DNA of 64,000 nt from Flavobacteriaceae bacterium (lineage in GTDB: Bacteria > Bacteroidota > Bacteroidia > Flavobacteriales > Flavobacteriaceae): contig JADHML010000001.1 in the NCBI GenBank assembly GCA_016780065.1, forward strand, positions 82,747-146,746, written 5' to 3'. Both the position numbers and the translations under genes were made by a program. Below, piece after piece: positions 21,019 through 21,154 of this stretch. Numbering within the stretch: position 1 is the first letter of the stretch; every line of letters begins with the position of its first letter. Under the pieces are notes generated by a model. That model did not search any database. It saw only the letters and a program-made list of their open reading frames with translations, and was not told where the DNA came from.

Positions 21019-21081
21019 CCATTTTTCGTGAAGTTAAAATTTATTGTGATTTGATACACAAAAAATAAGGGTGATCTTTTT
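21019..21081 (+). ncRNA. Candidate crRNA/scaRNA-like guide 1 (guide 21019-21042 plus repeat-like 21043 onward, U5 at 21077-21081)
   Basis: ATTGTGATTTGATACACAAA at 21043 can pair with the tracrRNA-like anti-repeat (8+3+4 bp); boundaries inferred. Confidence 0.45.
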
Positions 21082-21130
21082 AAACGTGTTTACGTCTTTT
21101 TTAATTTAAGTATAGTATTGTGATTTGATA
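21043..21130 (+). repeat. Two direct repeats ATTGTGATTTGATA (21043-21056 and 21117-21130), 74-nt period; degenerate mini CRISPR-like array
   Basis: Perfect 14-nt repeats directly downstream of the Cas9-like gene; 74-nt period is compatible with a repeat plus spacer unit. Confidence 0.6.
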
Positions 21131-21154
21131 AATCAATGATTGGCTGGGGTTTTT
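21093..21154 (+). ncRNA. Candidate crRNA/scaRNA-like guide 2 (guide 21093-21116 plus repeat-like 21117 onward, U5 at 21150-21154)
   Basis: Second ATTGTGATTTGATA copy, with a T5 run at nearly the same offset as in unit 1. Confidence 0.4.

Follow-up and report, generated by a model that had tools for sequence, protein, structure and literature searches.

A nuclease-dead Cas9 with two very small, fixed putative guide RNAs in a marine bacterial family suggests CRISPR immunity turned into a natural RNA-guided gene switch

What purpose could be served by two degenerate CRISPR-like repeats that stand directly after a cas9 gene? The question is raised by a 64,000-nt stretch of DNA from a Flavobacteriaceae bacterium, here called the window, whose positions are used for all coordinates (Table 1). 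An earlier note on this DNA had pointed out two copies of a 14-mer, ATTGTGATTTGATA, 74 nt apart just past the cas9 stop codon, and had suggested an array reduced to a few dedicated guide RNAs of the Francisella scaRNA kind. Both copies are there at that spacing and belong to a common 15-mer, TATTGTGATTTGATA. The same note had asked whether the 14-mer might be scattered through the genome with no linkage to cas9, which is not the case: the exact sequence has only these two copies in 1.02 Mb of genome sequence (58% complete), one-mismatch versions occur in four further places elsewhere in that sequence, and in every relative the units go together with cas9. We consider it likely that the locus is a domesticated CRISPR-Cas9, that is, a natural nuclease-dead, RNA-guided transcriptional repressor with dedicated guides of 9-11 nt.

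Table 1. Positions of the features of the dead-cas9 locus within the window.
Feature	Position	Strand	Basis or conservation
Syntenic flank, PpiC/SurA-type peptidyl-prolyl isomerase gene	14966..17068	+	Pfam Rotamase and SurA_N
tracrRNA (anti-repeat, nexus hairpin, second hairpin, terminator, U-tract)	17467..17541	-	14-locus alignment
Anti-repeat ATCTTATCACAAT	17524..17536	-	pairs with both units
Probable tracrRNA promoter -7 box TATATTTG	17540..17547	-	read in the sequence, just 5' of the anti-repeat
Nuclease-dead type II-C-like Cas9, 1145 aa	17557..20994	+	TIGR01865, E=4e-124
5' arm of unit 1 closing stem, TTTTTCGTG	21022..21030	+	own- versus cross-locus pairing energies
Unit 1 guide seed AGTTAAAATTT	21032..21042	+	identical in 12/12 loci
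Unit 1 degenerate repeat, 12-nt core ATTGTGATTTGA	21043..21056	+	core identical in 12/12 loci; duplex with anti-repeat
3' arm of unit 1 closing stem, CACAAAAAA	21057..21065	+	own- versus cross-locus pairing energies
Unit 2 guide seed AAGTATAGT	21108..21116	+	identical in 11/12 loci; GAGAATAGT in L069
Unit 2 degenerate repeat	21117..21130	+	core identical in 11/12 loci; one A->G in L069
Syntenic flank, DUF456 gene	21179..21679	-	PF04306

By family sequence and architecture the protein is a type II-C Cas9, since in addition to the TIGR01865 match its AlphaFold model (pLDDT 79.7, pTM 0.59) matches Nme1Cas9 and ThermoCas9 over the full length with E values down to 4e-40. In the RuvC domain the RuvC-I Asp is replaced by Thr and the RuvC-II Glu by Tyr, with the RuvC-III His and Asp kept; in the HNH domain the acidic residue before the His has become Val and the Asn has become Lys, with the His itself kept. 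Judged by its residues, with the RuvC-I Asp, the RuvC-II Glu and the HNH Asn gone, this Cas9 is catalytically dead. Most catalytic residues are also gone in homologs P0001-P0017, which reach down to about 40% identity, and in the genomic relatives L064-L072 and L077; L071 retains the RuvC-I Asp and has lost the others. They are intact in live homologs such as P0018-P0020, P0024, P0031, P0033 and P0038, and in the Cas9 tree, read as unrooted, one branch with support 100* splits the 27 rows of the dead set from 32 rows containing live ones. The dN/dS of dead cas9 is 0.13, 0.115 and about 0.10 in unsaturated pairs (overall about 0.12), so the dead protein is being maintained by purifying selection, as would be expected of a nuclease-dead RNA-guided repressor, and full-length reading frames persist across deep divergence. 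In a more distant set of Cas9 proteins (L014 in genome G032, P0036 and P0041-P0043) most members have lost catalytic residues too. Pseudogenised or truncated remnants of dead cas9 were seen in L081 (G009), L075, L078, L016 (G007) and L028 (G002), and the guide units are still present in L081, L075 and L078, which points to recent and independent losses of cas9 there. Because some lineages carry such copies, the system must be dispensable.

An ordinary type II-C system was considered and ruled out by the lost catalytic residues and the lack of an array. Only two degenerate units are present, and no Cas1 was found in 11 dead-lineage genomes; these are 58-86% complete where known, and the absence of Cas1, like that of other missing genes, is therefore provisional. 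Among 12 genomes Cas1 was detected in the live G029 only, whose array is of the conventional kind, with a 36-nt repeat.

The surroundings of the gene are stable. The order PpiC/SurA gene, tracrRNA, cas9, DUF456 gene is fixed in at least 12 Flavobacteriaceae loci; the PpiC/SurA-type gene adjoins in the 8 relatives whose locus extends that far (45-60% identity), the DUF456 gene lies downstream of cas9 in 12 relatives, L014 among them, and both flanks are present in every relative with long enough sequence. No relative was found in viral contigs. Some other structured elements were seen along the way. The stretch between the PpiC/SurA gene and the tracrRNA contains, at 17225-17325 (+), a hairpin with a long stem and a large loop, TTTTTCATTTAGTTTTTTCAT, after which comes CCCTTTTTTGCCC; this element recurs in L065, L066 and L081 and may represent a terminator or a further small RNA. 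Another hairpin, CGTCGATG...CATCGACTTGGTTTTTTTT, lies beside the tracrRNA terminator at 17396-17440 (+), and relatives carry a counterpart of differing sequence. Farther off, at 39752-39811 (+), a SAM-II riboswitch (Rfam RF01726, 74.6 bits) stands 5' of an ORF that begins near 39861 and is metK-like by sequence.

The tracrRNA gene is directly upstream of cas9 on the minus strand. In an alignment of 14 loci that takes in the live relative of G029, 4 pairs of its hairpins are changed on both sides and the anti-repeat stretch TCTTATCACAATAAGGC is invariant in all 14. The probable promoter box listed in Table 1 can be set beside the Bacteroidota -7 consensus, TAnnTTTG. Computation confirmed the pairing of unit 1 with the 17.5-kb anti-repeat that had been proposed from the letters (8 bp, a UU/UU internal loop and 3 bp), at about -11.5 kcal/mol, and this geometry is repeated in every locus computed. 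Thus tracrRNA-repeat pairing of the type II-C kind is kept. Compared with live G029, the dead-lineage duplex retains the 8 bp and the internal loop, and the outer helix has gone from 14 bp to about 3 bp. Both the repeat core and the anti-repeat are nearly invariant among the relatives.

Exactly two units follow cas9 in all 12 loci compared, with Cas9 identity down to about 40%. That only the tracrRNA-pairing part of the repeat is conserved while the 3' halves have diverged, as the earlier note had it, holds in this comparison, and the conservation goes further than had been noticed, reaching 5' of each repeat into what would be the guide seed of a Cas9 that is dead by its catalytic residues. 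The 11 nt preceding the repeat of unit 1 are invariant, the parts that vary among the 12 loci are the distal guide and the sequence 3' of the 12-nt repeat core, and the seed nucleotides are better conserved than the repeat 3' halves. In a Cas9 guide the nucleotides just 5' of the repeat form the PAM-proximal seed. Each unit thus combines a degenerate repeat that pairs with the tracrRNA and a short guide, as in a scaRNA-like guide RNA. The T5 run at offset 33-34, to which attention had also been drawn, is present in the window but is not a common feature of the relatives, and we give it no weight for that reason. In L014 (G032), which has the same synteny, there is a single unit ending AAATATAGT, placed before GTTGTGGTTTGATT. 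The two repeats are not a decaying array. That the locus as a whole is a decaying CRISPR remnant, in which cas9 function was lost and the last repeats are being erased, would agree with the several pseudogenised copies and with the Cas1 gene not found in the 11 incomplete genomes, but it is very improbable given a dN/dS of about 0.12 with full-length ORFs across deep divergence, seeds conserved better than the repeat 3' halves, and a tracrRNA that is intact and covarying.

Unit 1 is enclosed by a closing stem whose sequence differs by species and which pairs better within than between loci (mean pairing -9.3 kcal/mol for own-locus arms, -6.2 for cross-locus and -4.7 for shuffled ones). The stem flanking unit 2 did no better than chance in the own- versus cross-locus pairing test. 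The covarying stem around unit 1, the position of the units directly after the cas9 stop codon, and an outer helix with a T-run in some group-2 loci could also be read to mean that the units serve cas9 alone, as structured parts of its 3' UTR that let Cas9:tracrRNA regulate the cas9 mRNA or terminate the transcript. We think this quite improbable, as it leaves unexplained both the invariant seed outside the repeat and the chromosomal sites associated with N3TAAA described below, and the cas9 promoter region has no consistent seed match.

If the constant nucleotides are seeds of a DNA-binding complex, matches elsewhere in the chromosome could be accompanied by a PAM. Exact seed matches other than the units themselves were collected from ten genomes; in G012 the exact seed search gave no second 11-mer match at all. 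Among 90 independent exact matches TAAA stands at offset +3 in 6 cases where 0.79 are expected, with 0-2 occurrences at other offsets, and the top tetramers of the offset scan are overlapping pieces of N3-TAAATTT. The enrichment has a p of about 0.001 when TAAA is taken as a prior and six offsets are counted as tried; it would fail correction for all 2560 tests without that prior, which comes from F. columnare. Interference by the II-C system of that species requires a TAAA PAM (PMC8092290), and the N3-TAAA motif after the seed matches resembles it. An 8-mer offset profile was set aside as biased, some loci having been fetched with the TAAA pattern, and the unbiased set of 90 matches was used instead. 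When relaxed seeds were scanned with N3-N6 spacing, 13/16 N3 sites were antisense within -100 to +80 of a start codon, compared to 13/33 of the N4-N6 sites (p=0.006; independent cases, with orthologs collapsed by hand). For CRISPRi the effective orientation is the one in which the guide pairs with the coding strand close to the gene start. The N3TAAA sites at gene starts (p 0.001-0.006) may correspond to the PAM-flanked guide matches at gene 5' regions that mark a scaRNA, but they are not common to all lineages. Both the seeds and the PAM-like motif are AT-rich, and AT-rich signal-peptide codons could create some seed matches by chance, though several candidate sites lie upstream of the coding region.

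The orientation of these sites also bears on another reading, in which the same dead Cas9 and guides bind mRNA as a carrier of antisense RNA, the seeds pairing with the 5' ends of transcripts and blocking translation or altering stability. With nearly all candidate sites antisense near start codons the mRNA is complementary to the guide, and II-C Cas9 proteins can bind RNA. Still, a TAAA at the fixed offset 3 is expected of a DNA PAM and not of RNA pairing, and several of the sites lie 54-79 nt upstream of the start codon, which makes this reading unlikely. The Cas9 ancestry of the protein would suit a role in non-cleaving defence, in which the fixed guides recognise a site conserved in some widespread phage or mobile element; there are CRISPR effectors that defend without cleaving. 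At 9-11 nt, though, the guides lack the length needed for specificity against invaders, and they are fixed, with adaptation genes not found in the incomplete genomes, so that such a role seems extremely improbable.

Returning to the repressor, the candidate N3-TAAA sites are mostly at genes for exported or outer-membrane proteins. One SusC ortholog has a site in its first codons in G000, G061, G062 and G065, and further candidate sites belong to TonB-dependent/CarbopepD genes (G011, G064), lipoprotein genes (G003, G011) and secreted-protein genes (G000, G062, G064). A type IX-sorted secreted protein carries a guide-1 site in G003 (L206) and G060 (L400); its G063 ortholog (L142) has lost that site and shows instead, at codons 4-6, a guide-2 seed match that lacks TAAA, a possible swap between guides as far as can be read from the sequence. 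The ATP synthase operon has a candidate site in G060, G062, G064 and G065 only, and its conservation alone is weak, as 6/385 9-mers in that gene are equally conserved. A near-PAM was seen in L143 (G062), where a guide-2 seed match followed by N3-TAAC lies antisense, 44 nt upstream of a TonB energy-transducer gene. Despite the constant seeds, no one chromosomal target was common to all lineages. SusC was rejected as a universal target on seed mismatches in half of the orthologs (G003, G012, G011 and G063); the control genomes G004 and G006 are uninformative for this site because the KFIQIL-type SusC is missing among the genes seen in them. The atp-operon site was rejected because it is missing in G003, G011 and G063, the long-guide targets TTAAGTATAGT and GTGAAGTTAAAATTT because neither has an orthologous second site, and a local, autoregulatory target at the cas9/tracrRNA promoter because no consistent seed match is found there. 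The predicted regulon should be taken as a lead that has about an even chance of holding.

From these pieces we infer how the repressor would work. The units would be transcribed with or after cas9, and the nuclease-dead Cas9 would bind the conserved tracrRNA, which would pair with the short 5' part of the two degenerate repeats; annealing of the tracrRNA would free a seed that is otherwise paired inside the precursor. Guided by the 9-11 nt immediately 5' of each repeat, which would act as fixed seeds, the loaded complex would bind chromosomal sites made of the seed, N3 and TAAA (often TAAATTT) near start codons, pair with the coding strand and block transcription in the manner of dCas9 in CRISPRi, its main targets being probably genes for exported and outer-membrane proteins, for example SusC-type transporters. 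A wider account, for which we would put the chances slightly below even, is that Cas9 was inactivated once, long ago, in the Flavobacteriaceae and became an RNA-guided transcription factor that has been inherited vertically. On this account its two invariant mini-guides would stay shut in hairpins until pairing with the tracrRNA lays the seed open, and it would control an envelope and nutrient-transport regulon with sites turning over between lineages.

Engineered gene switches are widely built on nuclease-dead Cas9. To our knowledge a natural Cas9 that is nuclease-dead and has dedicated guides has not been described, and no earlier report of such a system was found in the open-licence literature of PubMed Central, whose scope takes in neither preprints nor most subscription journals. 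The finding of a dead Cas9 with two tiny, fixed putative guide RNAs in a marine bacterial family suggests that CRISPR immunity has here been turned into a natural RNA-guided gene switch. If true, evolution has made a gene switch of the dCas9 kind with guides that are little more than a seed, in parallel to the domestications that led from TnpB to TldR and in another nuclease lineage. This would bear on the minimum guide length for a regulator and on the exaptation of CRISPR systems, and it gives testable predictions in the form of two RNAs, one tracrRNA, one PAM and named target genes.

Short guides have precedents, with repression by a 9-bp match in the streptococcal long tracrRNA and a 15-bp match in Francisella scaRNA (PMC8730458), and with TldR guides that work at lengths as short as 6 nt (PMC13418256). 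The Cas9:tracrRNA:scaRNA system of Francisella novicida is alike in having a degenerate repeat near cas9 that pairs with the tracrRNA and a short guide, and also, as far as predicted here, in repression at the gene 5' region and in surface-protein targets, but its Cas9 is an active nuclease within a functional CRISPR system (PMC8730458). Our locus has a dead Cas9, neither an array nor Cas1 was detected in the incomplete genomes, and two guides with 9-11-nt seeds have stayed fixed throughout a family-wide lineage. The idea of an array cut down to a few scaRNA-like guides is supported as such, except that the guides are conserved over 9-11 seed nucleotides only and the Cas9 is dead, unlike that of Francisella, which brings the locus nearer to a domestication of the TldR type. 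In Streptococcus the long-form tracrRNA similarly uses a guide match of about 9 bp to steer Cas9 repression without cutting, as proposed here, but there the tracrRNA itself autoregulates an active Cas9 (PMC8730458), whereas here the seeds sit on separate crRNA-like units, and a match at the cas9 promoter was not found. CreTA, in which ectopic repeats guide Cascade, also has one or two degenerate ectopic repeats with short guides for a regulatory CRISPR effector, but it depends on type I Cascade and targets a neighbouring toxin (PMC9458426), compared to a single-protein dead effector with no local target here. TldRs, the TnpB-like nuclease-dead repressors, share the independent inactivation of the nuclease, the kept guide RNA, the short guides and the envelope or surface targets (here predicted), and differ in being of the TnpB/Cas12 lineage, with an omega-type RNA, and often phage-encoded (PMC13418256). 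With its Cas9 lineage, its tracrRNA and its two guide units in a fixed chromosomal locus, the dead-Cas9 system is not a member of the TldRs, which are defined by TnpB ancestry and an omega RNA, but by analogy it may work like one.
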